Of a stretch of DNA of 64,000 nt, positions 21,228-64,000 are shown one piece after another. Position numbers and translations under genes: made by a program. The notes below the pieces were generated by a model. That model ran no database searches. It was not told the DNA's origin and was given only the letters and a program-made list of their open reading frames with translations. This stretch comes from Isoetes taiwanensis. Its lineage: Eukaryota > Streptophyta > Lycopodiopsida > Isoetales > Isoetaceae. Numbering within the stretch: the stretch's first letter is position 1; every line of letters begins with the position of its first letter. The DNA is taken from NCBI GenBank assembly GCA_021234155.1, contig JAJEKV010000149.1, forward strand, positions 372,001-436,000, written 5' to 3'.

Positions 21228-21239
21228 GAAGTAAGGGCT

Positions 21240-28642: not shown

Positions 28643-28759
28643 GTTTCATTCATTTTTATGCTTGCAAAGGAAGGCTCTCGCCTGTTTATTCCTACCTTGG
28701 CTGGGAAAAACATCTCAGCAGTTGTAGCTCGACATAGCCTTCTTGCCATATTCCGCAGT

Positions 28760-31639: not shown

Positions 31640-32323
31640 AGTTCTTTTATTGTTCATGAGGCCAATCAGCCTATGGGACCCAAATTAGCACGGGTCAAAG
31701 AAGCAGATTTGCTACCCGGATTAAAAACCCCCTTAGGAGGGAAAAACCGTCAAGAAGAACAACTCACTGGTAAAATGCACAAATATACATATACACATGA
31801 ATTCCCCGACCTGTAGGCTCGGGGCGAGGTGAGTCCGCAGATCCAAAACCTCCCGGAGGTAGGAGCCAAGGATCGAATCTGACCACAGATCGAAAAAGTA
31901 GCTTCGTGGAGGGGGCGCACTGTGTCGCACCAAGAGAATGTAGTGAGCCCGACGACTATAGGTCGGACAGCTACCGAAGGCATGGCTTTCATCCTCAACA
32001 ACCCCCAGCGGCAACACCGACAAAGCCTTGCCCCCGGCGGGGCTCTCCAACCCCATCGGCCGCCTCAAGCCGAAGATGGTGGGCCCTCGCTCGAATGGAC
32101 ACGATGATCCTGGCGCTTCTTCATGGGCAACCGAGAACGCCGGGCCTCAAACCAGGTGGGGTTTATGTGCCGCTTTGTAGTGTGCCACCTTTACCCGTTC
32201 CAGCATGGTGGTCCCAGAGCTTCCCCAGAAACAAGAGTCCAAGTACCCCTCAGCCTATCCCCACGGCCGTCGTGCTCTCATTGCACCTGGGACGCACCTA
32301 TGTGCGCCTACGTTCAGCCAAGG

Positions 32324-33720
32324 CTAGCCACCGGGCTCTCTTGTCCTTCCAACAAGCCCCCGAGTCATTGCGGGCTCATGGCTGGCAGAAGCCAAGTGCG
32401 GGGAGCCGAAAGTGTCGCCCATCTTGGCCACCTTCCAGGAAATAAACAATGTGTCTATCGAGGGGGTCGCGATGCCGGGGGCATGAATCCCGTCTCGCAA
32501 CAAGATTTGATATGGAACCGGAGGGCTTGACCCCAAATGCCCGTCGAGTAAATGCTTTCGGACCTTCTCTAAGTCGTTCCAAGTCGCCAAAGACACCACT
32601 AGGCCCCACACCTCGAATTCCCCATACGTAAGAACTAGCTCCACAAAGTGCCCGGAACAAATGTGACTAGTAGCCCCAATCATACGGCCGCCCCTGTGGA
32701 TTGTTGTTTTGCATTGCGTACACGCCTTCCAACCTGCGGTCACCCGAAGGCGAATGGATGCATCCCAATACATTGAGGACGGAAATTCCACCCCCAGGTA
32801 CTTGTAGCTGGGTGTAACCTCTACCATCCGGCCACGGTGATAAGTGGCCGGAGGTGTCGGATGACGGAGGAGGATATGAGGACCACCTTAGTCTTGGCCG
32901 GTTGACACGCATGTCCGTCGCTGGCAGAATGTGTCCAGGCATCTAGGTGTGCCTGCATGCCCTCTGGTGTATGGGCCAAGAGGTCCACATCATCCACATA
33001 GATGAGCTGCCGGATGACCTGGTGCAAGAGTTGTATACCATCCCCCCATTGGCAGCAAGCCAGGCTTCCAACTGGTCAATGTAAAGTCCAAAGAGTGTGG
33101 GTGAGAGAGGACAACCTTGCCTAACTCCAATTATCGGGCAAATGATCGGCCCTTCCAGCTTGCAGGCGGCCCAGGTAAGCCTCAGATAACAGACATTAAT
33201 CGCGCTCTGCAGATCCATAGGGAGCCCCAGATGGTGCAATCTCGCCCACAACTTTTCCCGGCATCGCGGGTCGTAAAAGCTTTTGCAAAGTCCACTTAAA
33301 CAGAGTACAAAGTCCTCCGACGGTTCCCGCCCCCCACTGTGGCCCCGAGTGTGAAGATGTGATCAATGGTCGAATGTTCGGGTCCGAAGCCCGCCTCGGT
33401 AAGTACCCCGACTCCGCTGCCTCTGCCCATCCGGGTTACCCGCTGTTCGAGAATGCCCGCACGCCTTTGGCAAACACCCGAGCTGATTCATGATGGTTCG
33501 GGTAATTGGTCGGACAAAGCAGGGGTCCCCCGCTTTGTAGATCGGAACAACCCCGCTTGTGGTCCATGATCGGGGAAAACCTCTTGCAACCCGCTGAACA
33601 ATAAAGGCAGCAAGGACGGGCACCATGGGCCGTCCCGCCCACTTGAGCAACTCCGCTTGTAAAGCCATCCAAGTCCGCCGCCTTCCCATTAGCCAGTAGC
33701 CGCACCCCTCTTCGCATCTT
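32324..33720 (-). pseudogene. LINE reverse transcriptase (YVDD box present, frames broken)
   Basis: In minus-strand order: ANGKAADLDGFTSG and RSWTTSGVVPIYKAGDP (early RT blocks, 33700-33540), then GVRQGCPLSPTLFGLYIDQL (33130-33070, the block before the active site), then QLIYVDDVDLLAHTPEG (about 33010-32960, catalytic YVDD). PSYKYLGVEFPSSMYWDASI (32810-32750) begins the post-RT part. Each block lies in a different frame, so at least three indels separate them. The active-site residues are intact but cannot be translated together. Confidence 0.85.
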
Positions 33721-34119
33721 CTTCGCGGATCACCGGGTGGGCCATGTTGCTGGGGACATCCTGCCCATTGTTCCCGGGATCATAAAGCCGCTGTGTATCG
33801 CTTCCCATTGTGACCGGGCGTGATGTTCCCCGGGAGGGTCGTGGCCGGGCCGGGTACCCCTCGGCAGAAAGTTCTCGGTGGGGCCCAAAAGAGGGCCTAA
33901 CATTTCTCCTTGGTGCCTTTTGCCAAGGTACCTTGCCTTTGTTTCCTTGAGGAAGGCACGTGAATGGCCGGTGGCCTAAGCTCGCGGTCCCGGATCCACG
34001 ATGAGACGGAAAAGGCTATGCGTTCCTTACACCTCAAAGATCAAACCATCTCGCTACGCGGGAAAGGTTGCGCCTCGATCTCTCGTGGGGGTCTCCCAAA
34101 GTACCGTCGCCTGCTCGAG

Positions 34120-35095
34120 GAGCTCAACCAGCTGGTCGGTTTGTCGCTTCCGTGCCAGGGCCCGCTAACTGTCGGGAGGGCTTCGCAGCAGAAGCCTCCC
34201 ACCGCCATAATCCGCAGGCAAATCGAGGTCGCAAGGTACCGCTTACCGAGGGGCCGTGAGCGGCCGGGCCGTGCCGCCTTCCACATAAAGCGAGGTGATC
34301 TGAAGTCGGCCTCCTCGCCCCGACCGTCCGCCGACGCGAAAATGGTCGGACAAGGTGTACATCCCGCGCGCCTACCACTATGACATAATCCACGACACTA
34401 GTTCCGGCCCGTGATTGTCCCCGTCCGCAAGTGTACCCGCGGGAAGAGGGCCATTGTGGTAGGCCATTGCATATGAGCAGGTCAAAGATACCCCACATCG
34501 TGAGCAATTAATGCGGGCCGGCCGGTGACTGGACCGTTATCCGAGTGCCGGTGCAAGCCGCCTTGTGGGGACGAACCGGCAAAGACGCCATCCACGAGGG
34601 AGGTCCACCCCGCATGGCTTGTTCCACCCCGCCCGCCGCATTGAAGTCTCCAAGGAGCATGACTCGCCCATCTGTTGTGCTCATCAGATGTCATCATATA
34701 GATCGACATACGGGTCTATCCCCGCCCACCTCAGGATGGTGGGAGAAGGGACTCTCTCAAGATGGGGAAAGTAGCAAACAGCCTTAGGAAGAGAGGATCC
34801 CGCCGGTGGTGCACTCCTCGGATCCACAAGTAGCGGTTATGTATCCGGCTTCTTCCGAGGGAAACCAAATGTGCCAAGGCTATCCGGTAGTAGCAGCAAC
34901 CCCACCGCGCCCGTGTCTCCCCAGACAACCATTGAACACCGAAAAATGCCGGTACCCCGGCAGACGGGCAAAAGTCAGAAGCCCGGTATTCCCATGTCTC
35001 CATGAGGAAGATGAGGTCCATGTCCACGCCATTGAATTGAGGCTATTGCCCTTCTCACACGGGAAACCCCGACAGCCTGCACCACCACTTTGAGG
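34120..35095 (-). pseudogene. LINE endonuclease domain, frames broken
   Basis: DMDLIFLMETWEYRASDFCP (35025-34965) holds the metal-binding Glu in the ETW phrase, and VMLLGDFNAAGGVEQAM (about 34660-34610) holds the GDFN catalytic pair. Between and after them the frame shifts repeatedly. This is the APE-type nuclease expected upstream of the RT. Confidence 0.7.
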
Positions 35096-35799
35096 CACAA
35101 TTCCTATTGAGCCGAGATGCTTGTGTAGTGTGTGTCACTGGGATGGACCAAAGAAGGGGAGCAGATCGAGTTTGGGGGCGACGGACAAGTAAGCGAGGCA
35201 AAGCAGGGCAGCATTTGGTCGAAAGCAGAGCAGCATCGGAGTTGTAGGGGCGGGTTATGAGGATCGTGAGCGAGGCGCAGGGGTAGCATTTTGCCGAAAG
35301 CGTGTGCAACTGTAGCATTTGATCAATCGGGCGGGCGCCCCCGGCCCCGGGCGAACTCCCCCTCCCCGCTGCCTCCCCGCCAGACCGAGTAAGATCCCGC
35401 CACATACGAGATGTGCCCTACAAGAACTTGCCCCGCCGCAAAGATGGCCCTCGAACTCGCGGCATCCGCGAACCGCGGAACACCACGATTTTTCGGCTGC
35501 GGGCTCGGGCGCTGGAACCCCACACCGGCTGGTCAGCAGAAATGAACAGGTCCTGGACCAGGAAACGCCATCGCCCAAGGATGCGTGGTGTATCTTCCGG
35601 GTGATTCTCTCCGGCTCTTCCGCGAAGTCTCGGAACTACCAGTTGTGGGGGCGCTTTAGCGCTCATGGACTCGGCGTCCGTGAGGGCGACCGCCCTCTCC
35701 GCCTGGTGGTGGCACGCTGATGATGATGGTGCGCGGGTATGGCGGGCTGCGGCGCCGGATTGGGTTGACTAGGTGACCCCTGAATTGACGCCTTGCAGT

Positions 35800-36540
35800 T
35801 GTTGGGCTTTATGGCAGCGGTGTGTCATGTGTGCCGCAGCCTCATTCTCCGAAGTCCGGAGGTCAGCTCTGCAAGGCTTGGTCCCTGCCTCTTGCCATCT
35901 CCTCCCGTCGCCATTGTTCATTTGCCATTGTGCTCGAGGCCCTTGCCTTGTTGGGCAATGACAGATCGGAAAGCCGCATTTCCGTCCTGCGCCAAATCCT
36001 TCTCGGCGGGCGATCTGCTGCCTCGTTAACCTCCAAGGCGGCCTGCAACCTCAACTTCCAACTGGAGTGTGGCCTGTGCGCGCCGTGCCATGGCATTGGC
36101 CTCATCAACCTCGATGCGGAGCTGAGACGTGATTGCAAGTGTCTCGCCTCTGCCCCGGTCCCTGTCCTGTCTCGCAGCGTCCAGGGTATCCATGCGAGCC
36201 CGCATATCACGATCACCTACGGGTCTTCTTGTCTCTCGAGTGCACCAGCTTTGATGATGTCGCGTCGGCGGTGTGCTTGGGTCCGCGAACTCGGTGATCC
36301 GTTGTTTCGCTATCACCAACCGTCAAGGCAAGAACGTGGGGATGTTGCGAACTCCATCTCTCCGGGCCCGCACGCGCGCACGCTGGCCTCAACCCCGGCT
36401 TGGATGGTGGCCTGCTGTTCTCGCCCACGGAGGGGCCCCAGGGGCCTGGCAGCCAACTTTCGGCTGCCGACGAAGCCCGGCGGCAGGGCCTTGGCCCGCC
36501 TCCTTCTTCATGGAGGATGTCTCTCCCTTTGCTCATCAAG
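35800..36540 (-). pseudogene. Probable LINE ORF1 remnant
   Basis: Two overlapping minus frames carry a Pro/Arg-rich start and then Arg/Glu/Ala-rich helix (DTLDAARQDRDRGRGETLAI, RIEVDEANAMARRAQATLQL), consistent with the coiled coil of LINE ORF1. No RNA-binding motif could be read with confidence, so the assignment rests on position and composition. Plus-strand frames over the same bases are longer in places but have no recognisable content. Confidence 0.4.
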
Positions 36541-36869: not shown

Positions 36870-38210
36870 TCAACATTACTTTGTGCGCTGACTTCCAAAG
36901 GCAGTGGGGTCTCTGGCATACAAAATTGCGCTCAGAATCCAATTTGGGGACCAAAAACGTATGTCAGAGCACCTTTTAGGGGTTTGATTACATTAACTTT
37001 GGCTTGGTGAAAGCAATAGCTTCAACATGGTGTTCTTAGAATCATCTTTTAATTTCAAATCTGGCATGTATTCTTCACATCCACATATGCTAATAGTGAT
37101 GAGGTGGATTCTGCAACAAACATATTTTTTTTCATTTATGTAAACAAATGTCAAAGCACTTGATAATGGCTCAGATCAGCATTCTGGAAACGGACAAGCC
37201 ATCTATCTAAGTGATGTTCATTCTTGTGGCCATTTATCGACGTCTTCTCACAAGCAACATCTCTTGGCCGATCTCTGTGTTCTTTGCGAGTCCCTTACCG
37301 GAATTGTACCACAAGCAAACCAACAAAAAATGAGCAAGCAATTATGCAAAACCATCCCTAATACTACACCATAAGGTAGTTGCAATCCGTAGTGTCTTTG
37401 CACCTTCTTAAGCTTAATGTCACTGACAAAATCTGTGATGTCTTAGTCGAATCAATCTTGTCTACAAAATCCAAATTTTTTCCTCGCCAATGTATCTTGA
37501 ATAATGTTGTTGTTGCTTATGAAGACATGTAAATCACATTCAAAGTCATAAAGCGGTGTATCTTAAGCTATATGATAGATTATGTTTACTAGAGACGTTA
37601 TGAAGCTCCATATACCAGTAAGGTCAACAATGCTTTTCTAGGAGAACCACCTAAATCTTTTTGGTTGGTAACTTGTACCCCTTGGCACCATTTTTATTTA
37701 CAATTGTAGCACATATATGGGCATAAGCATGCTACACCCTACCACAAATCGTACTAATAAGGGACTATAAAACTACCTAAAAGAGTACCTAACACTGGGT
37801 ACTGGATACTTATATAATGTCTCATTAACTAATAAGCCTTGAATTAGATGAATTTATTTTGGCCTCATAGTAATGTCCTTATCTTAACCTTGAATACTGA
37901 CATGATTTGGACTTGTATTTTGAATTGTTGAATTAGTTTTGATGAAAAGAACACGATACCCAACGCAGAAGTAACTAGTGCAGGTACTTTGGCAGGTTCC
38001 AAAAGTGGTAGGCTGTAGCATGTTTATGCCCATATTGTCTCAATTATTTTCCGTTATTACTCATGAGCGCATCATTCAAGATTTGCCTATGCCCATGTTG
38101 TCTCAATTATTTTATGTTTATCATTCAAGATTTGCCTATGAATGATGGTTCTTAAGAGATCGAATGCCACCTCGAAATTTGCCATAAACAAATTTGCCTA
38201 TGCAAGAAGA
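36870..38210. other. Intergenic, no gene recognised
   Basis: AT-rich; short duplicated phrases occur (TGCCTATGCCCATGTTGTCTCAATTATTTT type, near 38025 and 38085). No coding frame. Confidence 0.45.
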
Positions 38211-38219
38211 CAAAACGTG

Positions 38220-39500
38220 TATTGAATGGGAATCTAACCGATGAAGAGTATATTCAACTTTTCGTACAATTTAATAATATAATTGCTAACACTGTACAAA
38301 GAGCCTCTTATTGAAAAGCTCCAACAACATAGATATCAATATAAAGCTTATGGCTGCCCTCCGCAAGCTCTAACTGGGATATCAAAATCTTCAGCCTGGA
38401 AAGTAAGTCTTTTACTATATTCTTAACAAGGTTACGATCGCGATCCTAATGAGTTGTTGAAGTTATGACCACGCTAAAAGTCGAAGCATTTAAAGATGAG
38501 AACCAATTCATCTTTATGCAAGAAGATACTTGGTCTAAGCTAAGGCAAGTTGTTTTCGACCGGGCAATAAAAAACCGGGTTGATGGTCATAACACATTGC
38601 CTGAAAAAACTTAAAAAGATGTAGTAAAACCTTTCTGAGGTATATCCGTGGAATTTCCATTGCAAAAGTATCCCAGTTGATGGAGGAAATTGGAAAAAAA
38701 AATATTTCTGAAGGTGCAATCTAGATACATTGGTCATTTTGACTGTAAGCAAAGGGTCCAGACATTAGGACTCTGACTCTCATTGGTCGTGAAATACTAG
38801 CACGTGCTAATAGTATATATTATAGAATAGAACTAGTTTTGACGAAGCTTTTCAGCCATTTCTTATAACTTAATAAACATTGCCTTTTGGATATTGTTGA
38901 TTCTGATTTTGAATATGTTAAGTGAAATTATAACAAAGAGCATATTCAATAGAAGCTATATCAGGCCAAAAGAAGCTTAAGACTCTAAAAGAGAAAAGAA
39001 AAAATGTGCAACTTGTAAAGAATTTGAGAAGTCCCGGTAATCGACCTATTGTTGAAAATGCCACGATGATCTTCATTGATATGTACTACTCCACTAGGGT
39101 TTGGCAAGTAAAGAAATGTCTGCCATATTTAGCAGAACTGCTTGCATGACAATCGCCAAATTTTATCATATCAAGTACAATGTAGTCTGCATGTTTCTAT
39201 GAGGGCATATGAAGAACAATGTTGGATTAGCAAGAAAATAGTAAAGGAGTTCCAATACTATGTGACACATGTACTTGTCAACAGAATTGAGGCTCAGGTG
39301 ATACCATTGCAACTAGATTTGGAACTTCAACTACTCAAGTGATAAATGCTTCCAAAAAGCATATTTTTTCCACATTATGAGTGGATGGGCTGAAAAGAAA
39401 TATCTAATGTATTTTACTGGTAAGCCTAAATTTACTTGGGTTGGTATGGATGGAGGCTTTCTTCTCAAGAGTCTAGCTCAAACATCTTATGTCTATCATA
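38220..39500 (+). pseudogene. DNA-methyltransferase-like transposon protein, N-terminal two thirds (copy 2)
   Basis: The region follows the better copy at 47000-48425 in order. RVLNGNLTDEEYIQL and the block EKLQQHRYQYKAYGCPPQAL align with EKLQQLRHQHKAYGCPPQGP. An intron carries a GATCGCGATC palindrome at the same position. GHFDCKQR matches GRFDCKQR. MIFIDMYYSTRVWQVKK (about 39066) matches IFIDIPEMNKVWDCKK, the motif IV region. MRAYEEQCWISKKIVKE (from 39199) matches GSYEEMGWESKRRVKE, and KKYLMYFTGKPKFTWVGMDG matches KKYQTLFTGKPRFKWAAMEG. Stops and frameshifts are frequent. Homology ends exactly at 39500, where a transposon end starts, so motif I and the C-terminus are absent. Confidence 0.75.
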
Positions 39501-39595
39501 GGGTAAAAGCACGCTGTGGTATTCCAATTCGGCTGTCCCCCCTCCCCCCCAAAATGTGGCATTGCATCACCACTTTTGTGGTATGAAAGTATAAT
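39501..39595 (+). repeat. Transposon terminal and subterminal repeat (end B)
   Basis: Bases 39501-39520 equal 1993-2012. A CACCACTTTTGTGGTA block follows about 50 bp further in, as at the first end. CATA just outside (39497-39500) is the proposed target duplication. A short C-run lies between the two blocks. Confidence 0.65.
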
Positions 39596-39773: not shown

Positions 39774-40330
39774 GATGTCAATGAGGTAATCTGTCCACAA
39801 ACCGGCAATTCAGACAGGAGAAAACGAAGAACCAATGAACAAGAAATGTTGAAGAAAAGACGCCAGAGGAAAAGAAGAAGAGAAGAAAAATTGGAGCTTG
39901 CAGAATTGGGCGTAAGGATCCTGGTTCATCAAGAAGTGCAAGCAAAGAACGCCGTATTGTCCTTAACTTGCTAACGTCTTTCCATAAACAGACCAAAAGA
40001 ATGGAGGATAGCATGAAGAAAGAAATTTTACTTGAGTTTTTGAGGGATAAAACATTGGAAAAATTCATAGGTGAAGAATTAAAGGATTTGGAAGCCAAGA
40101 ACATCGTTATAAGGAGCCTCTGGGACTCCATGCCGGTATCCAAACTCTCTACCAAGCAATGACGCCTAGCAGCCAAGAATAGCTGCCTTGCAATGTCTGT
40201 ACCACGCCGTGCAGATTCTGAAACAAGTGACAAAATCAGCCAGCGAGATCTTGGAAAGGTATTAGGTGTTCACCCAAGAAACCTGCAAAAGGTGCTGAGA
40301 TTCGTTGCCCTGCGTCAATTCGTGTAATGA
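39774..40330 (+). pseudogene. Small basic transposon-borne protein, unknown
   Basis: The first ATG inside the transposon end opens a very basic frame (KRRTNEQEMLKKRRQRKRRR), probably a nuclear-localising or DNA-binding segment. After a change of frame near 39950, it continues LLTSFHKQTKRMEDSMKKEI and LRDKTLEKFIGEELKDLEAK. After another stop it reads KISQRDLGKVLGVHPRNLQK, which resembles a helix-turn-helix. I do not recognise the family. Its position 250 bp from the terminal repeat mirrors the gene at 2221, although the sequences differ. Confidence 0.4.
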
Positions 40331-40482
40331 TCCATCCGATTTGGCTTTCCCGGTTTAATGAGCTATGAGATATCGGGGATCACTACTACAGATCCCGAAG
40401 ATGAATGAATCACTTTGCTTAGCATTGTATAGTGTAAGAGCTCTTGTGTTGAGATGGAAACGCAGAGCGTAACAAATAATAA

Positions 40483-43400
40483 CTAGTCTATTGTAACTTT
40501 CATGTTATGAATGATATAGTAATTATGTAAAAGAGCATTGCATACCTCAAGAGTTCTCATCATCGCCTTAGCTTCTTTAGCCACTAATTCTTGCAACCGA
40601 GCCCTAACACTACTGGGGATCACCACCGACAATGGCCCGGTCTCTACGGCCCAACCATAGTCTATTGTTTTCAAAGGTTGGTAGCGCATGGTCATTAGGA
40701 TTGGGTCTCCAATTTTGCTCCAACAATCCCTATACTGCATTGCATATGAGGTTCCCTTTCTGGCAACAGGTTCAAACCAAGAGACAAACACCTCTTCATA
40801 ATGTGGGAGATTAGGGTCCTCTATTGGGTCCTCTTCGGCAAAACCCATCCATGTCGGGCAGTTATCATGTGGTCTGATTAGCAAGAGCATTCCCTTCTTG
40901 ACATCTTGGTAGGGGTCAATATTTCAACCGGGTTCTTGGTCTACCCGAGAAAGGCCCAACGTAATGAGATGCTTCAATGTGCTCATCCACAAACACTCTT
41001 TCTCGGGTTCTTCCAATGCACTTTGCCCGGTAGCCGGGCCGAAATCCCTGAATGAGAGCTCTACCGCTGCACGCCACCAAGCACTCGCAACAAGGTGGAC
41101 CAATAGTCAATAACTTCATTCATATATGTGTTGGACCATGACTTATCGCCAGCTCTAGAAATAGCTGCCCAGTGCATCATGTACTTGGCAATAGAAGCTC
41201 TTAATGCACCTATATCTTTCAAGCTCCCATATGGCTGCAGGACCTTAGGTGACCCTCTCGGAATCATAGGTAAACCTTGGGCATCCTCCTTCCACATTCT
41301 GATTCCCTTTTCAGGGAGCCACTCCCTATGCCCTGGCCTCATCTTGTAGAACATTAGTGGCCATCCATCCTTCATGCAAAACTTGAAGAGTAGAGGTTCC
41401 AAGTGACCACATAAACGGTCCTTCTTATCAGGGATAAAACCTTTCACGAATTCCTTCCAATCAGGAACCTCTGTCACAAGGTAAGGCATGAAGGAGCCTT
41501 TGAACTACTTTCACTCAAGAGTTGCATAAGCTCGGAATAGTCAATGCATCTGATCTTCTCATTAGAGTAGAGTAGTTTCCAAATAGGGCATCTATGTCAT
41601 CGTGGGTGTGTCCAACCATCATGAATCCCAGCTGCACTTGATCAAATACACCTAACCAAACCAAGTATGACAAGTAAGAGAAAAGATATCTATTCTTATT
41701 CGACTGAAAGCAATTATCTAGCTACAAGTAAAGCCTCCTAGGCAACTTGTTTGCTACCATGGGGCCTTTGATAGGAGGCATAAAATCATTTCTACCGCCA
41801 TTCATCATTTTTGTCCCGAGGTTATCGTGTTTAAAATTGCCGCACCCATTTTGCTTTCAAAGACGATCAAGATCTCTCAAATGGCCCCAATTATCCTCGA
41901 TTTATTCTCCGGTGTCTTCAAGGTATGATTCAAGGATCCCACATGAAAATTAGAATCATCGGGCCGAGGTCCGCTGGAGAAGTGGCCCAAGGCACCTATA
42001 CCATGGCCGTGCATGAGAGCACCTCAGAACACCGACCTTCACGGGCCGCTCACCCCTCCATACGGACTTTGCTAGCTTCTAGACGAGGGACCATGGTCTT
42101 ATTCTGATCCATCTTATCATGTATAATGGTTAAAGCGTGCTTCGGAGATCTATGCGACAAAGCTCTCCAGGACCAATAAAGGCTCCCCCGCAAGAAATCT
42201 GGGCCGCCATATGCATTTCCTCTCTATTGCAAGTACCCTTCTTTCGTTTGGATCTCTCGGTCTTAGCAAGCTTTTCCTTTATGACAATACTGGTGTTACA
42301 CTTGGAAAATGCTATCCTCTTAGCTATTGATACCTCTCGAATGATTCTCTTTCCAAGCGCATTTAAATGACGAAGGAGAAATATGCTTGCCTGTCATCTC
42401 GTCAGAACGGAAATATCTACTTCTTGGTGTATATCCTTCTTAGTCAAGACGTAAGGTAGCCTCTTAACATTTTGTTCGCTACCCCGCCGTAATTTTCGAG
42501 CGGTGTGGCATCGTCTCTAGCGCGTTTTCATCTATGAACATAGATAGCAATAAAGATTGCCACCAAAGTATGAGACCTTGGCTTCTTAGACCCAAGATTT
42601 CGCGTGCTCGCAATTCCCCGCGGGCCATCATTGAAGAGCTTCTTCCACTTGTAAAAAGTGGAAATGGGAATGCCATAGGCTTTATGCCATGCTTTCACGC
42701 GACACCTGTTTGTTATTCAACATCAGTTTGCGGACTACACCATTTTCAGAGCAAAGATCTAGCATGTTATATGCAAAAGTTGTGCGCTCCGAGGACTTCA
42801 TGTTCCAGTAAAAGGTTCTCATGCAAGCTATCTCCTGGGATGTAAAATTTGCACAACATCGTTTCATGCAGCACAGTGATGACCTGAAGTCTAGAATAGC
42901 CTCAGCACTAGTTTTTCTTTCACATTTACTCTGGCCGGGCGTGTTCGGGTCTCCATTGACCATGTTGTGAAGGTCTCTTTTTGGTGATGCCAATTTCGGG
43001 TCTAATGGAGTAAGGTTCATTCTCCACATCCTTCTCCTTCACCGCAACCACAAGAGTAGAAACTGGAATGTTATCAACGAGCACGAGGGCTATGGGCCAT
43101 CTCACAAGGTCATGCAGTTGGGGCATTTCTGCACAGGCCTGGCAGCGCATAGAGATCTTTTCAGGCATTGGAAAAATGTTCATGATAGTAGCAGCTATCG
43201 AGCCTTCCCCTAACTTCACGTCAGACACAGCATGGTTTGGATCGGCAAAAACGATAACACCATAGGCATAAGCCATGTAGCAAAGATTCATGCATGAGTG
43301 TGCACGCCTTTCTCAACTAACTCATCTCTAGAAAGCCCTTGCACATGATTCGTCTCATTACTGGCTAACCCCTCATTCCCTCTGTCCTGCCAGTCTATGC

Positions 43401-43749
43401 GTTTTATCTGACCTGGTGGGGTGCATGCTTCCTCATCTCTATCAAGTTGAGCAGCAATGTCCTTCTTGTACCACAACACAAAAGTCCCCACAGCTTCACC
43501 CATTTTTTCTATTTCCATTTCGGGAATTGGTAGCGGTAACTGTCCATCCAGAACATTCACAATTGAAACGACAACCATACCCTCCGGGACAGTCGAATTG
43601 TGATGGCGCTCGAAATTGTGGACTCTTCCTTCTGCCACCTTTTTCCCCAGCAGATACAGCGGAATTACATCAGCCATCCTGCAAACAAGAGGTCGTGAAT
43701 AGCGCGGCCGCGATCCTCGTAAGCAGAAAGCACTGTGATCACAAACCAC
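40483..43749 (-). pseudogene. DUF7869-like transposase of a DNA transposon, many lesions
   Basis: Read on the minus strand, the order is a region with MADVIPLYLLGKKVAEGRVH and GTFVLWYKKDIAAQLDRDEE (43690-43430) like accessory domains of CACTA-type proteins. Then CCMKRCCANFTSQEIACMRT (about 42885-42825), followed in another frame by a segment like KAWHKAYGIPISTFYKWKKL (about 42700-42640). After a long broken stretch comes GFMMVGHTHDDIDALFGN (about 41630-41580), the hallmark HTH[ED]DID phrase, then VTEVPDWKEFVKGFI, GHLEPLLFKFCMKDGWPLMF and WLPEKGIRMWKEDAQGLPMI (41489-41250). The tail to 40483 is unassigned. I know this layout from DUF7869-containing transposase-like proteins of plants and animals; the function is inferred. 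Frameshifts and stops make it non-coding. Confidence 0.6.
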
Positions 43750-44000
43750 TACAAAAAATAGGAACTGAAAAATAAAAAATGCTCGGGACTATCGCCACCG
43801 CGATCTTATCGAGCATGGGTAAGAACGCGGTCGCGCTTTTTGCAAGCATTCACACTAGCTGTTTCGATAAGAACTCGTGCAAATCACATTTCGAGGCTAG
43901 CTAGTGGTTTCAACTCAAAGTTGTCGATAGCTGGGAGTTCATTGGTCAATAGCAAGTGTAGACGGTTGAAGGTATCGCGACCGCGATCTCGTGGAGCACC
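43690..44000. repeat. GCGATC-palindrome cluster upstream of the transposase
   Basis: Four GCGGCCGCGATC-like dyads lie at about 43703, 43794, 43826 and 43975. They are the same kind of motif as in the methyltransferase-like element to the right. Confidence 0.7.
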
Positions 44001-44055
44001 AAAGTTATACACGACTGACTTACAGAATAAAGCATTACTCATACCTCATAGAATA

Positions 44056-44133
44056 CGGTGGCGTCAACGTCAACTTGTAGCCGGTGGCGTCAACGTCAAC
44101 TTGTAGCCGGTGGCGTCAACGTCAACTTGTACC
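44056..44133. repeat. Three tandem copies of a 26-bp repeat
   Basis: Units begin at 44056, 44082 and 44108 and are essentially identical, each containing GTCAACGTCAACTTG. The perfect identity points to a recent duplication. Confidence 0.95.
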
Positions 44134-44399
44134 CGTCAGAAGCTGCAGTGTCATAAAAACAGTGTTTAGTTTCATCCACATGGAGAAAGAAAGCATATAC
44201 CTGAAACACGTTTACATTGTATAATAAACACACCAGAGTGCACAGTTTTGCTTAGAACATCTATTTTTACATAGTTGCAACAAAGTATCAGGAGGTATCT
44301 TATCAATCCATGCAATACATAGTGATGTTAGTGCAGAGACTCGGAGGTTGTAGTTATAATTAAAATTCAGTGCAACATAGACGTTGAGTTCACTTCAGT

Positions 44400-45090
44400 G
44401 AGGGATATGCATCAGAATAGGCCTTTTACCTCGCCCGAAACCCCGAATTGGCGCGCTTGCAGAATTCAATGTGTAGTGGCAGATTGCAAGCGGATTATCG
44501 CCCTCGCCGGTGCCTTCAATGGATGCGAATTTGCAAAGAAATCCTTGCCCGAACTTGGCCCACTTTTAGGCGCTCCTCCGCCCGAAGATCTTGCAAAACA
44601 ATGAAATTTGAATTGGCTTTTTTTTTCGAATTGGTTTGTTCTCGATTTCAAATTCTCTGCCATCCTTTGGGTCCGGCCCCAGAACCGGATTTTTTGGGGC
44701 ATTTATGGTCGCATAATGTGTCAGGTCCGAAATTACGCCCCGAATTTGAACGCGGACGTCCAAGTGGATAAGGACCTTTCCTACGGATTACTTGCCTTTT
44801 CGGACGGGTATATTCGCACGACCGCATTTATGTCAGGGAATAAATACGGCCGGCCGGCCGGTAATTATTACCGGGCGCAGACGACTCCATTATGGCCTAC
44901 GTTTTTCACGCCTAATTATGAGGGGCGGGCAATTAATTTCAGCGTCGCGTTCTATAAATTGAAACTTCAAACCTTTTAAAACAAATTTCGACTCAAGCGA
45001 TTGCGATTCACGCTTAGCTTTTCGCCCTCCGAGCCTTCTCGAGCCACTCCAAAAGACTCAGATTTAACTCAGCCCGGCGCCAGCGATCCC
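44400..45090 (+). promoter_or_regulatory. Putative promoter and leader of the methyltransferase-like element
   Basis: TATAAATT at 44953 lies about 140 bp before an ATG at 45091 that opens a short exon ending at a GTATTTTC donor. Upstream is GC-rich and includes GGCCGGCCGGCCGG at about 44850. An EBox/TATA-style plant promoter is plausible; no transcript evidence is available. Two frames of 100-120 codons cross the region but have no recognisable content. Confidence 0.4.
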
Positions 45091-48000
45091 ATGGCACCTA
45101 AGGACTCCCTCAAAGAAGGTATTTTCTAACATTTCAGTTTCAAGAAGATCGCGGTAGCGATCTTGCCTACCGAGCTTCTATTGTTTTCATAAGTATTGCC
45201 AAAGCAAGATCGCGGCCCGCGGTCTTGTTTTGATAGGTTTTGTAATTTCTAGACAGCGTTCTTCATAAGTGTAGCTGCTCAACAAGATCGCTGCCGGGTC
45301 TTGCTTGATAGGTTTTGTAATTTCTAGACGGCGGTCTTCATAAGTGTAGGCTGCTCAACAAGATCGCGGCCGTGATCCGGGTGAGTATAGATTTTCTTTC
45401 TTTATATGTTTCATGAGTACTAGTGTAGTACGCCATTAGGTCCGCGACCGCTGATGTTTTCTTGCCGTGCTTAAGTGTTGCTACTAAACGCCGTGCCGCG
45501 ATAGTGTGGAGTTCTATTTTAGCTGCTCGGCAGGATCGCGGTCGCGTTTCTCTACAGTAGTTTCTACCTTTTCCTTGCACCACATTATGCAAAACCCTAC
45601 CGTGCACTCACCACGTGCTTTTTGTTTAAAGACTTGCTCTTCCGAGGACCAGATGTCGAGCCACCAGATTATAACCCCTTCCAATGAAAGGAAATGGTGT
45701 ATTGAGATTGCATGTGCTATACAAAGACATTAAGGGTGACCGCAGGAAAAGGACCCGCGGCTTCGCTTCGCGGGACTGAAAAAAAGCCGAGGACGTTGGA
45801 ACAAGTTGGCATAGTGGTGGCAATGTGGGAAGGCACGAAGAACAATGTGCAAGATGCTATCATATGCAGCATTGAGGACACACAAGCATTGCAGTTTCTG
45901 GAGTACATTTTGAAATGGCGCAATTATGACCCGTCTATGATGACAGCCAGCAAAATGAACAAGCCAGCCACAGGGAAAAACGTCCCCACGTCAGCTAAGG
46001 GTTATGGCTGGTTGTTGCCATCCTATGAATCTCTCTCTTTGTCGTATAAAGGGAAAGAGACATATTGCTTCGGGTTCTCGGCATGCGTAAATGGTTTGTC
46101 TACGACAAGAAGCCTCCGAAGCCGTGCCTTGAAAGCGCTCGGGACGAAGATGCCCTCCCGTGATGGACACTAATTGGCTAAGAGCCGTGGCCAAGAAAAA
46201 AAGAGTGTGAAGCCTATTCTTTGCTTTGGGAGAGACATCAGCATTAAAAAGAAATTGCTCAAGAACCACAATCCACGATAAACCCCTCCCAGATTGTTAA
46301 TCCTACTCTTCCTATTGCTATGAAGGCCCCGGATAGCACTACATCCTGGTGGATTTATTCCAAAAAGTTCCCTCCTTCGAATTAGCCTCGTGAAATCGAC
46401 ACACCTACTGAAGATAGCCCGCAGCCCAGCAGTTCACAACCCCCAGTTACGGATGCTTCCTCTAGACTAGCATTGCCATGGCACCACGCACCTGCCATTC
46501 CAGTCGAGTTGAAGTTCAATCCCGAAGAGGAACGCAAGATGGCAGCAAGCAAACCTTTCGTAAGCTTGAACAGTTCAAAAGGTTCTACCCCTTAGGGGTT
46601 AATTGGTTTACAAAGATTTCTATTTTTTGATTGTGAACCTGCACCAGCAAACTTGACACACAGAATGCGGTCAAATGACCATGTTCAAACTCTGGTTAAA
46701 AGCTTCAAGACATACCTCATGTGAGGTCCTCACCCCTCACGACGCCGTTCGCTTTGACCCTATTACCAGGTAACTAATTCTTTATCTTTTGGACACTCGT
46801 TATGTAGATTTGACCTGACGGTTGTCTATCTTTCAGGAAGAGGGTGACATAGAGCAATCCAGAAGATTTGAAGGGCAAGAAATTTTATATTATTTTCGCA
46901 ACCACGATTTTCGCCGCACAACTCCTTTGTTCTGGCCGCCGGGCGAAGTTCGAAAGAAAAGAACGCAGAATTTGCCAAAGTATATGCTAGAAGACGATCG
47001 AGGGTGCTCAACGGAAATCTTACAGACAAGGAATATATAGAGTTGAGTATTCAATGCAAGTAATTAATTGCAAAACACCGTGTACAGAGAGCCACTGATT
47101 GAAAAACTGCAACAACTTCGTCATCAGCACAAGGCTTATGGTTGCCCTCCACAAGGACCTATAGGGACAGCTAAAACTTCAGCTTGGAAGGTATTTATTT
47201 GTTTTCTACTCGCCAAGTTCGCGGCCGCGATCTTGATGACCTTGAAATTGCTTCTGCAGGATTTCCATGAAATTGCAATGACCACCTTGAAAGTGCAGGA
47301 GCTTAAGGATGAAAAACAATTCATTTTTATGGATGAAAAGGTTTTCAAGAAGTTAATGGAAGTTGCCGGTCTGTGGGTGAGTCGTAAACTCAGTGACGAC
47401 CATGGTGAGTTTCCGGACAAGCCATCCAAAGACTTCTTTAACAAGACCTGGCTCCGGTTGCTATGAGGTATGTCGAATGCGAGAGGTGTCACTGTTTTTC
47501 GATGAGATTATAGAAGGCAAGGCGATATTTAAAGGTGCAAATCGGGTTATAGCGGGGAGATTTGATTGCAAACAACGGGCAACCGACATCAGAACCCTCA
47601 CTTTTATGAGGCGAGAAATTTTTCTTATGCCACAAATTTCGCAAAAGGATTTCGGATAGCTGGGAGGAATTGCTTCGGGCTTTTCCGATTTGGATGAACA
47701 GAGAATATCGGATATATATTGATACCGATACAGAGTAATGCGTGAAGGCTAATTATAACAAGGATCATACACTAGGTAACCTACCGTAGCCTTTTCGAGC
47801 CAATCAGAATATTCTAAAGCCGTAAGAGGCTAGAAAAAGAAAGGAAAAGAAAAATATTGTCATAGCAAAGGACAAAGGATGGCATCCCTACTTCCTCCCA
47901 AGTGTCGAGAATGCGACATTGATATTTATTGACATCCCAGAGATGAACAAGGTATGGGATTGCAAGAAATACACAGATCTATTTACAAGGATAGCTACCA

Positions 48001-49260
48001 TGACGATTGCCAAAGTTTATCACTTGGTTATTATCATGCGCTCAGTGAATTTGCCAAATTGCTTGTACAGTCAGAAGCAAATTCAGGGCGGTGGCTACCT
48101 ATCTTTAGGTTCCTATGAAGAAATGGGATGGGAGAGCAAACGAAGGGTGAAAGAACATCGCGATTTTATTAGTCATATGTGCATTAACAGAGTGATGTTA
48201 GGGTAACACCTCGCGGCAACCGTGAGTTGGAGCTTCACCTATCTCCACACGGCAAGGCTCCTAAGTCAACACCATTGCCTCCAATGCCGCTAACAGTGTA
48301 ATGAGGATGCCGACGAAGATAAAAAAGAAATATCAGACTCTTTTTACAGGCAAACCAAGATTCAAATGGGCGGCAATGGAAGGAGATCTTGTATTGAAAT
48401 GCCAGCTGAAAACCTCCTATGCCTACCATATTGTTGAACAGCTGGTGCCGACTGATGGTTGTGTTCTGGATTTCTTTTCTACCGGACGCTTTCGTGTTGC
48501 TCTTATGCAAGGCAAAAAGAGCGTGGCTTTCGAAAGTTCAGGTAAAGTGTGCCGTTTCCTGAGGGCGTTCTTTGAAACGCTTGATAAAATGGCCAATCCA
48601 AGTGCCGATGGGTTTGAGGAAGAGCCGAAAGCAGAGAGGGTTGAGCCTGATCCAGCTCAACCCGACATCAGTATCACCCAAAACACAGATCTATCAAAGT
48701 TGGATTCCATTTTGGAAAACCTCGATGCTAAGTCCTACGAAGAGAGAATGCAAGAAACAAAGCGCTTGCTTGAAGAGACGGAAAAAGGTATAGAAGCCCT
48801 AGAACCCACTTTTCAAAAATTGAGTGCACTTAATGAGAAGCTTGATGGGTACATGCCTTTCTTTGAAAGCTAACATCAGTTTGAATACGTGGGCATAGAA
48901 CACATGGAAGCGCAACAAAAAGACATGGAGATTGACCAAGATGAGGTTCTTGGGTCACGGGAGCATCAGTAACGGAAGAAGAAGCGAAGCTCTCTCATCC
49001 ACAGCAGAATGCTACTGCATCGGAGCTACTGCAAAACGAACTTATAGGTGGGAGCAGTGCAATGGACAGTGAAGAATGGGAGTTTGATTCACATCTGCAG
49101 CGCATCGCAAAGGCCATGGGTGTTGTAGTTCCAGAGATCACAGGTTATTCAGAGATGGACACAACACAAGCTATGGAATTGGGTAGAGAGCATGTCAATC
49201 GCATGGCCAATGAAATGGGTGTGATACCTGATCAAGTATCTGAAACACAATCAGAATAAT
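45091..49260 (+). pseudogene. Beta-class DNA amino-methyltransferase-like protein of a mobile element (copy 3, most complete)
   Basis: Exon 1 starts MAPKDSLKE at 45091. Later blocks: 45740-46190 (VGIVVAMWEGTKNNVQDAII, GYGWLLPSYESLSLSYKGKE); about 46660-46880 (RMRSNDHVQTLVKSFKTY, faintly ParB-like); 47000-47460 (EKLQQLRHQHKAYGCPPQGP, an intron with a GCGGCCGC palindrome, then FIFMDEKVFKKLMEVAGLWV); 47480-47650; 47880-48170 (NATLIFIDIPEMNKVWDCKK, the motif IV position where DPPY is expected); 48301-48870 (KKYQTLFTGKPRFKWAAMEG, then DGCVLDFFSTGRFRVALMQG and KKSVAFES, motif I plus the acidic residue that holds the S-adenosylmethionine ribose). Motif IV before motif I is the beta-class order of N6-adenine/N4-cytosine methyltransferases. 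DIPE in place of DPPY suggests lost catalysis. A last frame (49062-49259) is an acidic tail. At least four stops or frameshifts occur. The family name is inferred from motifs. Confidence 0.5.
45140..45560. repeat. First-intron cluster of AAGATCGCGGnnGCGATCTTG palindromes with a ~73-bp tandem repeat
   Basis: Dyads at about 45150, 45210, 45287, 45361, 45443 and 45535. Two adjacent units of about 73 bp (from about 45234 and 45307) share TTTTGTAATTTCTAGAC and TTCATAAGTGTAG before each palindrome, so at least two copies arose by tandem duplication. Confidence 0.8.
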
Positions 49261-49369
49261 TATCTCCTTCAATCAGTAATTATGTTGTATATTACTTCCT
49301 TCAATGAAAATTTTTGTTTCGAACTTTGGTTTTGTCTTTACCCATATCTTTTACCATATGTTTAATGCT

Positions 49370-49550
49370 AAAATAATCGCGATCACGATCCTCCTCAGTA
49401 ACAATTATATGGCTTTAAATACTGAATTTTGTGTGATATCCTTGCTCCTCGGTACCTTCTTTTAACACAATGCTCTCATATGGTTTTAATAAAAGGCACA
49501 TTATTTTGTCTCCTTTCAGCTGCGAAACATCGCGTTCGCGCTTCTTGCGA
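49370..49550. repeat. Two further GCGATC-type dyads 3' of the element
   Basis: ATCGCGATCACGATCCTCCTC near 49376 and CATCGCGTTCGCGCTTC near 49527 match the palindrome family seen in the intron, at a 3' flanking position. Confidence 0.55.
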
Positions 49551-49599
49551 GAAGTTTTAACACTCCCTCCTACTACGTTATACTCGCGGTGAACCTTTG

Positions 49600-49990
49600 C
49601 ATTAGCAGTAAAAACTATATTTCCGAATAAGACCGAAGCCTTTGCAGAATTTGTGCAAAAAAACGCCAACTTTTACTCAATTGGTAGTAGTTTTTGCACT
49701 ATATGGCTACCCGCTAACCTATTTCATGCTAAACGAGAATTCCAAATTTCTCTAATTAATGAATTCATGCTTAAGAGGGAAGAGATCGATTACAATGGTG
49801 GGAAATGGGTTTCTTACAAGAGGGCTAAAAGATTCAATGCAATTTCAGATGAACATATAGAAAAGATTCAAAATTTTTGGATTGAGAACACCAGAGTGTC
49901 TCCTAACACAAAGGATGCTAGAACTAGAAGATTGGAGAGAAATGTAAGATAAGAACATGCTGCCCACTATCTGGAGGAATCACAGGTTAG
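49600..49990 (+). pseudogene. Transposase-family fragment (SPNTKD motif)
   Basis: The frame reads REEIDYNGGKWVSYKRAKRF, then ISDEHIEKIQNFWIENTRVS and PNTKDARTRRLERNVR, a stop, and EHAAHYLEESQ. The block F(W/Y)..(.)..R.SP..KD followed by H.L..S/T...Y is one I associate with the segment just before the catalytic part of the DUF7869-like transposases. Only about 110 codons remain and the rest is missing. The assignment is an inference from motif wording. Confidence 0.4.
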
Positions 49991-50397: not shown

Positions 50398-50928
50398 CTA
50401 AGCAACAGGAAATGCTGGTATGACTGGCTCGAGAACTGGTGCATCCAAAATTATTGTTTTCTGCACTAAAGCATCTAAGCTTTCTGCAGTCATCCCAGAA
50501 TTTAACAGGATGAGGTTTGCTAGTGCTTCCTGCATCCCCTGGTGGTAAGAACGCAACCCTGCCAGTAATTCCCGTTGTTGCAGAGTCAGAGCGGACAAGT
50601 GATAGAGAACAAATAAACCAGCTGCCCTTGCAGCAGCATGTAACATAAGCTCATGGACCTTGTCTAAGAGCTCACTTCTTGTCAATCTGACCCCAAGCAT
50701 AGCCATTGAAGGCCCAGCATCCAGTCTGTTGTATGCCTTTAGGTTGGATTCGAAATCAGCAAAGAAGGTGGATTTACACATTTCCACCTTCAGACATTGG
50801 TCACGAGCCCTATTTAACATGTGCCGAATGCCCTCCTCGCTCACCCTACAATAGCCGTAGTGATCTCTGAACATCCTTCCTACCATGTTGCCGGAATGAA
50901 CTTGTTCGAATTGAGAATGAAACGCCAA
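50398..50928 (-). CDS. Unknown 176-residue helical protein
   Basis: An intact frame from ATG at 50928 to a stop at 50398. It is rich in Leu and Ala and looks all-helical (LLDKVHELMLHAAARAAGLF, LTLQQRELLAGLRSYHQGMQ), with a hydrophobic, Pro-Val ending (EPVIPAFPVA). No transmembrane segment, zinc site or repeat is obvious. Codon use and the absence of stops make it a better coding candidate than most frames nearby, but it is flanked by transposon debris and simple repeats. It may be a transposon accessory gene or part of a host gene with introns. I do not recognise the family. Confidence 0.45.
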   Translation of the reverse strand: MAFHSQFEQVHSGNMVGRMFRDHYGYCRVSEEGIRHMLNRARDQCLKVEMCKSTFFADFESNLKAYNRLDAGPSMAMLGVRLTRSELLDKVHELMLHAAARAAGLFVLYHLSALTLQQRELLAGLRSYHQGMQEALANLILLNSGMTAESLDALVQKTIILDAPVLEPVIPAFPVA

Positions 50929-51069
50929 AAATCAGATGCAGGAACAGGATTTAGGACCCAGATCCTTTTCTAATGATTAGAAGAGGAATGTAATTATTAT
51001 CAGGGTGTACGAATTTAGGAAATGTTTATGAGAGCAGGCTAGGCAGATTTCTTATGTCGATGAAATAGG

Positions 51070-52669: not shown

Positions 52670-52886
52670 TTTGAACTAAGGTATAGACTGTCTTAACATA
52701 GTGCACATCATAACTTGTGGTAGCAGGGACTTGCGTGCATGTGGCCCCCTCAAATCAATTTAATTCATATTTCATTCTAACTATCTTGATCAGCTAGAAA
52801 ATATGTCAGGCAAGAATTTTAGTTAGAACTTTCAGAGGTCAAATTACATTTGTTAGTGAAGAGTCTAACTAGTTTGATACTTGGAA
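52670..52886 (-). repeat. Dispersed ~225-bp repeat linked to Helitron exons (copy 2, inverted)
   Basis: Reverse complement of 6217-6445 with scattered differences. It stands immediately left of the helicase exon. Confidence 0.75.
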
Positions 52887-52929
52887 AGCACTATCAACGT
52901 GCAAGACACTTACTTCTTTTTTGTCCTTC

Positions 52930-53693
52930 AGTTTTGGCACCCCGTCAAGTTTTTGTTTTCGATCTTGTCAGCGACTAGAGATAAGCCTAATTTACATGCT
53001 GTCGACTTTCTTTATCCCTTGGATATCGTCCGAGACCCTGATTCATGTAAGAAACATGCTTTTTTATCTCCAATCAATAGGAGTGTTGATGATTTTAACA
53101 CTCGCATATTAAGTATGGTATTGAACCAAGATAAGTCATACTATAGCTTTGACCACATCACTGAGCAAGACGAAATCATACATGACCATCCATATGCAAC
53201 GTCAGACTTCCTTAATAACTTCACACATTCAGGGATCCCGAATCATGAATTGAAGCTCAAGGTAGGAGCTATATGCCACTTGATGAAACGTTTAGACATG
53301 GAAAAAGGTCTCGTAAAAAATGCAAGAGTCATGATTGAATCAATGCATTCAAGGTTTGTAATGGTTAAGGTTTTGGATGAAGCATCCATAGAGTATGGAA
53401 GCGCATACCCAATCTCGAGAGCTGACTTCTTCTATAGACCCGAAAATCGACCATGGACTATTCATAGACGTCAATTGCCCCTTCGACTGGCATATACAAC
53501 TACATTCAATAGCTGCCAAGGGTTAACATTGAGTCGAGTTGTTATTGACCTGCGAACCAATGTGTTCGCACACGGGCAACTATACACAGCGCCTACTCGC
53601 ATACGCAACAGACAAGATGTGCTCATTCTCCTTGCACCAGAAAATACAACAAAGTGTACTACAAATGTTGTCTACAAGGAGTTACTCTGCTGA
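52930..53693 (+). pseudogene. Helitron Pif1-family helicase, C-terminal part
   Basis: After a pyrimidine-rich CAG acceptor near 52931 the frame runs to a stop at 53691. It includes AFLSPINRSVDDFNTRILSM (the block following the central helicase motifs), GAICHLMKRLDMEKGLVKNA (usually LMRNLD...GLCNGTR), LPLRLAYTTTFNSCQGLTLS (motif V) and VFAHGQLYTAPTRIRNRQDV (motif VI; the ALSR core reads APTR). Pif1-type helicases unwind DNA 5' to 3' and power Helitron rolling-circle transposition. Walker A and B motifs and the Rep nuclease are absent. The altered motif VI and missing N-terminus mean it is not active. Confidence 0.8.
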
Positions 53694-54873: not shown

Positions 54874-55552
54874 TGTTAGCCTAAAACCTGGAATTTTAGT
54901 CTAACCTCAAGGAAGCTCAAACAAAATGGTTAGGACCTCCAGATCACTTAGGGTGATCAATCCTTGACATATGAAGTGAGAAAAGTCATTTTGGAATATT
55001 GGTTTTTCCAAAATCACTAAAGTCCCTGAAACTGAAAAAACTGTCAGAGCAAAAAATGGCCTTGCAGACACACCTTGTGAGATTTTTGAGATGTGATTGG
55101 TGGTATAGATGATCAACAAGCAAAGGAAACTGGGGGTGGAGATTTGACTTGATTTGAATAGGGGAAGGTTGAGAAAATGTAGGTCAAAGTCGGATCAAAA
55201 AGTTGGCGGTGCCAAAGCAGAGAGCCAAAATTTGCGGATGGAGTTTGATAAGGAATCTTGAGTTGGGATCGTGGGAGGCAACTTCAAAATAACCCCTAGA
55301 TCATGTGCATAGGGTTTAAATAGCAAAAAGAGTTTTGGTTTCTCTGTAAGTAGCGAGAGGCCTCGGGGAAAAGAACAAACTCTGTGGATGATTATGAAAA
55401 AAGGTCTTTTTATGTGTTTTCTTTGAATGTGTAGGTCTCTAAGGTTTTTATGAAGATGAAATGCAACTATCTGAAAAGAATATAGCTTGGAATAAATATT
55501 TTGGGTTTTTTTTTTTAGTTTTTAGCTTTAAAAGCACAATGCAGGATTACAA
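54874..55552 (-). repeat. Left LTR (3' LTR), minimum extent
   Basis: Aligns base by base with 63325-64000. The left edge is sharp (TGTTAG). The right edge is unknown because the partner is cut by the window end; the LTR may continue further right, and a CTAACA at 57368-57373 would match the terminal inverted repeat but lacks an adjacent polypurine tract. Confidence 0.85.
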
Positions 55553-63324: not shown

Positions 63325-64000
63325 TGTTAGCCTAAAACACGGAATTTTAGTCTAACCTCAAGGAAGCTCAAACAAAATGGTTGGGACCTCCAGATCACTT
63401 AGGGTGATCAATCCTTGACATATGAAGTGAGAAAAGTCATTTTGGAATATTGGTTTTCCAAAATCACTAAAGTCCCACAAACTGAAAAAACCGTCGAGCA
63501 AAAATGGCCTTGCGAGACACACCTTGTGAGATTTTTGAGATGTGATTGGTGGTATAGATGATCAACAAGCAAAGGAAACTGGGGTGGAGATTTGACTTGA
63601 TTTGAATAGGGGAAGGTTGAGAAAATGTAGGTCAAAGTCGGATCAAAAAGTTGGCGGTGCCAAAGCAGAGAGCCAAAATTTGCGGATGGAGTTTGATAAG
63701 GAATCTTGAGTTGGGATGCACGTGCAGGCAACTTCAAAATAACCCCTAGATCATGTGCATAGGGTTTAAATAGCAAAAAAGAGTTTTGGTTTCTCGTAAG
63801 TAGCGAGGCCTCGGGAAAAGAACAAACTCTGTGGCAGTTATGAAAAAAAGGTCTTTTTATGTGTTTTCTTTGAATGTGTAGGTCTCTAAGGTTTTATGAA
63901 GATGAAATGCAACTATCTGAAAAAAGAATATAGCTTGGAATAAATATTTTGGGTTTTGTTTTTAGTTTTTAGCTTTAAAAGCACAATGCGGGGATTACAA
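63325..64000 (-). repeat. Right LTR (5' LTR), cut by the window end
   Basis: Begins TGTTAGCC and aligns over its whole visible length with 54874-55552, with small differences such as ACACGG for CCTGG, GGTTGGG for GGTTAGG and several one- to three-base indels. Confidence 0.9.

Follow-up and report, generated by a model that had tools for sequence, protein, structure and literature searches.

A broken copy of a probably Sola-like two-gene transposon in Isoetes taiwanensis and its methyltransferase-like, probably non-catalytic accessory gene

The stretch of Isoetes taiwanensis DNA considered here (contig C962, positions 372001-436000; hereafter the window, 64,000 nucleotides) carries a broken, left-truncated copy of a DNA transposon of about 10.4 kb that bears two genes, a transposase gene and a second gene that looks descended from a beta-class DNA amino-methyltransferase. 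We consider it probable that the window copy is a dead Sola-like element in which a DUF7869 transposase gene diverges from the gene of an accessory protein, that this protein derives from a fusion of a ParB-like segment with a beta-class methyltransferase, and that its catalytic motif has been replaced with the protein itself remaining under selection. A sequence-only reading of the window had placed a mobile, methyltransferase-encoding element at 45091-49260. The plus-strand locus that it recognised is real, but the element is larger and includes transposase remnants on the minus strand. The features on which that reading relied, a motif I-like block that follows a motif IV-like block and two further partial copies elsewhere in the window, were all recovered, and they stand among the parts listed here.

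40291-49772, plus strand: left-truncated, broken transposon copy; blastn against the full copies L015+L007, L016+L008 and L017+L014 begins at 40291-40296
49752-49772, plus strand: right terminal inverted repeat, CTAATTAATGAATTCATGCTT; the right end at 49772 is common to L007, L009, L012 and L014
40992-42900, minus strand: remnants of a DUF7869-type transposase gene; tblastn with the transposase open reading frames of L015 and L016, best E 2.5e-116
45598-46770, plus strand: remnants of exon 1 (N-terminal part), located by tblastn with the L008 and L013 versions
46817-47244, plus strand: exon 2 remnants, ParB-like segment; tblastn with L008 exon 2, in three frames
47248-49262, plus strand: remnants of exon 3, comprising the methyltransferase-like region and a tail at the C terminus; L008 and L010 exon 3 match here by tblastn, best E 9e-180, spread over several frames
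47931-47942, plus strand: motif IV position, DIPE (DIRG in siblings); from the sequence and sibling comparison
48463-48534, plus strand: motif I-like block VLDFFSTGRF..ALMQGKKSVAFES; from the sequence
38204-39505, plus strand: second partial copy, more decayed, with DMYY at motif IV; tblastn with intact sibling exons (best E 7e-39) and translation
1637-1992, minus strand: third partial copy, motif I side only; tblastn with intact sibling exons, best E 4e-17

The exons of the window copy are scattered over several frames, which is why we call the copy broken, and Pfam and NCBIfam searches with six of these broken frames returned chance-level matches only. In intact siblings the plus-strand gene consists of three exons in long open frames, with splice sites placed by inference; the end of exon 1, its limits drawn from open frames, would start the ParB-like segment, and exon 2 carries IISGNHS within that segment.

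That the region is repeated and mobile, as had been proposed from the sequence, is borne out by terminal inverted repeats, 4-bp target-site duplications, a transposase and at least 150 exon-matching places in the genome searched (1,658,258,908 bases in 1110 contigs). This number is a lower bound, a 106-residue exon piece matching 150 of the 150 places scored (weakest E 2.6e-35), with 1837 candidates at first look. We read eight sibling copies, each about 10 kb long, and for three of these another 10 kb upstream; blastn resolves the copies into a single repeat unit that is 10.4 kb long in L015+L007; the copy in L017+L014 measures 13.7 kb and holds about 3 kb absent from the other copies, and that in L016+L008 is without its right end. 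The element ends are imperfect terminal inverted repeats of 21 bp, alike at 18 of 21 positions. With at most two mismatches, the left-end 21-mer is found at 692+679 places genome-wide (reversed control, 0) and the right-end 21-mer at 376+338 (reversed control, 0+2). Left-end matches (1371) outnumber right-end matches (714), an excess that may reflect copies truncated on the right or variants missing from the right-end pattern.

Target-site duplications were compared in ten copies whose two ends lie on the same strand, picked from the first hundred listed places per end. In 10 of 10 paired copies the matching duplication is 4 bp or longer, reaching 7 bp inside a simple repeat in one case, and the full copies L015/L007 and L017/L014 are flanked by the 4-bp duplications tttt and gcta, so that all 12 copies read at both ends show a duplication. 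Over the 14 bases compared on each side, the flanks of the paired copies on C51 and C712 (L026/L027 and L038/L039) are identical; these copies count as one event, the stretch probably being present twice in the assembly. A duplication of 3 bp, suggested by two copies, was dropped for 4 bp once ten more copies had been compared. The transposase gene occupies the left half of the element on the minus strand, its open reading frames in L015 and L016 matching Pfam DUF7869 (E 2.7e-32 and 4.5e-37), and the second gene diverges from it on the plus strand within the same element. Close to its left end the element has a direct repeat of 138 nt that has diverged (74% identical; L015 6310-6447 and 6975-7112). 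A 4-bp duplication fits the Sola superfamily without being exclusive to it, and it is by published descriptions of duplications and terminal repeats that we set the element beside Sola as a probable Sola-like cut-and-paste transposon.

What distinguishes the second gene is the state of its motif IV. In exon 3 of intact siblings motif IV precedes motif I in one open frame, the former reading FIDIRG or F[IV]DMRS and the latter, for example, VLDFFSAGTASRVALMQGKKSVAFES. These genes, which we refer to as the degenerate family, form three subfamilies whose members are 55 to 95 percent identical to L010. A census took the best match per copy in 51 distinct copies outside the window, drawn from ranked lists, mostly hand-picked and not representing weaker relatives, and found D-x-R-[GSAC] at motif IV in 48 of them (25 DIRG, 15 DMRS, 4 DMRA and one each of DFRG, DVRG, DIRS and DMRC). 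The remainder are one DMHS, one deletion at motif IV and L006, a wrong-frame reading counted as unreadable. A DPPY-type tetrad (DPPY or DLPY) is present in none of the 50 readable copies of the degenerate family. Because D-x-R-[GSAC] occurs in all three subfamilies, the replacement of the catalytic motif probably predates their divergence. The sequence-only reading had judged the window copies to be dead from DIPE and DMYY; the loss of the tetrad stands, but it is the shared D-x-R-[GSAC] that documents it, DIPE and DMYY being products of decay. Indeed, since the window copy is broken and its frames are shifted, DIPE and STGR are best taken as decayed readings of the sibling motifs, and DIPE differs from the DIRG of the nearest siblings at two codons. 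Judged by its motifs, the degenerate protein looks catalytically dead.

The altered protein was nevertheless maintained. Ratios of nonsynonymous to synonymous substitution rates (dN/dS) were obtained with the Nei-Gojobori method from thirteen pairwise comparisons of natural copies. Over the methyltransferase-like part (residues 196-445 of L010), dS is unsaturated in six pairs, whose ratios are 0.32, 0.23, 0.10, 0.31, 0.09 and 0.20, in copies that were chosen for long open frames and hence with a bias towards low values. In the other seven pairs (four between subfamilies, three within subfamily C) dS is saturated and dN ranges from 0.15 to 0.31. The motif IV stretch of 46 codons, with few substitutions, gives ratios of 0.05 to 0.52 in eight pairs with finite dS, and the C-terminal tail is looser, reaching 1.19. 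We conclude that the D-x-R form persisted as a functional protein in transposing lineages. It is conceivable that such a protein remains active as a methyltransferase, its active site being altered and its substrate another one: the segments around motif IV and motif I are under constraint, the aspartate of motif IV is kept, and most aligned copies also retain the acidic residue that follows motif I. However, the Pro-Pro and the aromatic residue of motif IV hold the target base in beta-class amino-methyltransferases, and they are absent from the 48 D-x-R copies. Motif I, for its part, is one residue short of FSGSGTT. An active enzyme of this kind therefore strikes us as quite unlikely.

The ancestry of the second gene is best approached through another family in the same genome. 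A search with N6_N4_Mtase (PF01555) uncovered a canonical sister family with 150 of 150 scored places above the cut-off (best E 3e-17; 1444 candidates at first look). Most of these matches span just one half of the model, that with motif I, which is what a split exon should give. Fifteen sister loci were read (L050, L051+L101 and 13 more), among them these genes.

L050 4173-5523: ParB-like plus methyltransferase gene of the sister family, the family with D[LI]PY and FSGSGTT
L051 2921-5598: ParB-like plus methyltransferase gene of the same family

Motif I is DAFSGSGTT in 15 of 15 loci, a result favoured by the way the loci were selected, and motif IV, anchored on its flanking residues, is readable in 11 of the 15, where it is DLPY nine times and DIPY twice. 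A lack of family members with a DPPY-type tetrad, named with the sequence-only reading as an outcome that would refute it, thus half holds: the degenerate family has yielded no such member, and D[LI]PY occurs in the sister family alone. No sister copy lies inside the window by tblastn with 87 residues. In L101+L051, the only sister element read on its upstream side, the layout matches that of the degenerate element: a ParB-like exon (VLGGNHSFKARRQL) and methyltransferase exons in beta order stand head to head with a minus-strand transposase gene that is related to that of the degenerate family (tblastn E 1.6e-19). The two differ in that D[LI]PY and FSGSGTT are intact in the sister family. In L050 a related transposase gene lies on the other side in convergent orientation, and could be part of an adjacent element. 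Among phage records, 865 match the canonical motif I exon, the 15 listed ones being annotated as methylases or methyltransferases. The ParB-like exons of the sister family have weak matches among ParB-like PHROGs (E 0.014 to 0.33, ranked below an unnamed PHROG) and match Pfam DUF6551 at E 0.011, and tblastn against phages with such an exon gave nothing at E <= 1.

The sister and degenerate families are so diverged that profiles alone connect them. In hhalign, the sister motif I exon aligns with the degenerate family on motif I with a score of 41.0 (E 6.3e-5), which none of 100 column shuffles reaches (highest shuffle 21.5, reversed 19.6). The sister motif IV exon aligns on motif IV with a marginal score of 23.1 (E 0.028), equalled or exceeded by 2 of 100 column shuffles (reversed 17.8). 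Both placements fall at the expected positions and in the expected order. Shared descent of the methyltransferase parts of the two families is on these grounds a good, not a final, conclusion, and the same strength attaches to the apparent descent of the second gene from a beta-class amino-methyltransferase. The ancestry proposed from the sequence is in this respect upheld by the co-linear motif I, with motif IV marginal and the Pfam matches below the cut-off.

Several results, to which the choice of open-framed copies for dN/dS adds, weigh against this conclusion or against the wider explanation of which it is part. N6_N4_Mtase is the family matched by most members of the degenerate family (5 of 17), yet the profile search that had been suggested as a check stayed below the curated cut-off for all 17 members, with a best E of 0.02 (L010 reaches 14.4 bits, the cut-off being 26.7). 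Pfam and PHROGs searches with intact sibling exons gave sub-threshold matches only, and the profile of the 17-sequence alignment (A1) found no methyltransferase among its best 60 of 62 matches in the PDB. The AlphaFold2 model built from the same sequences has a mean predicted local distance difference test score (pLDDT) of 39.5, too poor for a fold search. The hhalign probabilities are low, 64.5% for motif I and 1.8% for motif IV, because the alignments are shallow, and the sister middle exon finds no match in the degenerate family (E 0.4). As for the ParB-like segment, exon 2 matches the sister ParB-like exon weakly (E 0.0052 across 23 columns; of 200 shuffles, 1 scores as high), and a genome search with ParB_N (PF02195) gave one chance match (E 1.49) with a tool that may miss weak matches, so that the descent of this segment from ParB is but weakly suggested. 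The degenerate exon 3 of L010 found nothing at E <= 1 by tblastn against 50,697 phage records. Separately, a scan of viral contigs with L018 yielded 7 pattern matches and no relative, and PDB matches of the A1 profile such as cytochrome c peroxidase were set aside as chance level.

Several of these observations are what one would anticipate if exon 3 had another fold and its two motifs resembled those of methyltransferases by chance, namely that no curated profile exceeds its cut-off, that the best PDB matches hold no methyltransferase, that the structure model is poor, that motif IV is marginal and that the sister middle exon is unmatched. Against such a coincidence, motif I aligns to the sister family beyond all 100 shuffles, motif IV follows in the right order, both families sit in elements with related transposases, and N6_N4_Mtase is the family that most members match. 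We accordingly regard a chance resemblance as unlikely.

In the explanation that we favour, that of a Sola-like element with a remodelled accessory protein, the ancestral accessory gene would have been a ParB-like segment fused to a beta-class DNA amino-methyltransferase. Its motif IV would have been replaced by D-x-R-[GSAC] before the three subfamilies diverged, and the remodelled protein would have been retained by selection. It would no longer transfer methyl groups and may bind the DNA of the element, perhaps via its ParB-like part; in doing so it may recognise or mark the element ends together with the transposase, protect the element from silencing, or compete with the sister canonical methyltransferase. 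From these sequence comparisons we infer that the protein would act non-catalytically, as a DNA-binding partner of element DNA or of the transposase. A more specific scenario, in our view unlikely, is that a transposon lineage converted the DNA methyltransferase that it carries into a selected regulator without catalysis, which would bind element DNA or sites marked by the sister enzyme. In a vascular plant, such a pseudo-enzyme would read or antagonise a DNA mark that transposons encode. Perhaps the second gene is simply a passenger that the element captured and that does nothing for it, since passenger genes do occur on transposons and the window copy is itself decayed. However, the protein is constrained across three diverged subfamilies, and a counterpart is found at the same place in L101+L051, the only sister element in which that side was read, so that we give the passenger very little credence.

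Elements of this general kind are known. ParB-methyltransferase accessory genes have been described on algal transposons (PMC12477816), one of them on a Sola1 element, Sola1-1_Ec32 of Ectocarpus, whose second gene lies opposite the transposase gene and encodes ParB-like and DNA methyltransferase domains. This answers in part the sequence-only reading, which had been unable to tie the family to any known plant transposon. Sola1-1_Ec32 and the Isoetes element share a ParB-methyltransferase-type gene on the strand opposite the transposase gene within one element. They differ in that the former is a 21.5-kb element of a brown alga with a methyltransferase predicted to make N4-methylcytosine or N6-methyladenine (PMC12477816), whereas the latter, likened to it by description, is an element of about 10.4 kb in a vascular plant with its catalytic motif replaced. 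The same proposed domain pair is seen where ParB-CTPase folds are fused to N6_N4 methyltransferases (PMC12704722), but there the fusions are phage and prophage proteins, not plant transposon genes. Sola2 elements, according to PMC3627910, have short terminal inverted repeats and AT-rich 4-bp target-site duplications. A Sola2 element with Fanzor1 resembles ours in its short imperfect repeats, 4-bp duplications and accessory gene beside the transposase gene; it differs in that the accessory gene is a Fanzor, and it is likened by description, not by transposase sequence. Among the matches listed in a search of the open-access literature, no such element in a land plant was found, which is a weak negative. 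What we have not found in print is the vascular-plant host and a conserved non-catalytic lineage beside a canonical family.

To our knowledge, it is an open question whether transposons evade or modify silencing by the host with DNA methyltransferases of their own. Within one genome, a canonical family and a selected family without the catalytic motif offer a natural comparison: marks, if any, are expected with the canonical family, and the function remaining to the degenerate family must be non-enzymatic. Through the canonical family, a vascular plant genome would also contain candidate enzymes for N6-methyladenine or N4-methylcytosine; reports of N6-methyladenine in plants have been questioned (PMC12695648).

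Other features of the window lie outside this element. A direct repeat, 54874-55552 and 63325-64000, is 95.3% identical over 688 columns with its arms 8.4 kb apart, and could be a pair of long terminal repeats. At 50398-50931 on the minus strand there is a weak match to a resolvase N-terminal domain (E 0.026, below the cut-off). An open frame at 52878-53693 on the plus strand contains a Pif1 helicase 2B domain (E 3.3e-9) and is presumably Helitron-like; another, at 21228-22496 on the plus strand, contains an Exo_endo_phos domain (E 5.9e-10), and we take it to resemble a long interspersed nuclear element. The minus-strand open frame of 493 residues at 27164-28645 resembles, we assume, a pentatricopeptide repeat protein. 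The G+C content of 32001-36000 is 0.58-0.60, compared with 0.35-0.49 in the other 2-kb bins.

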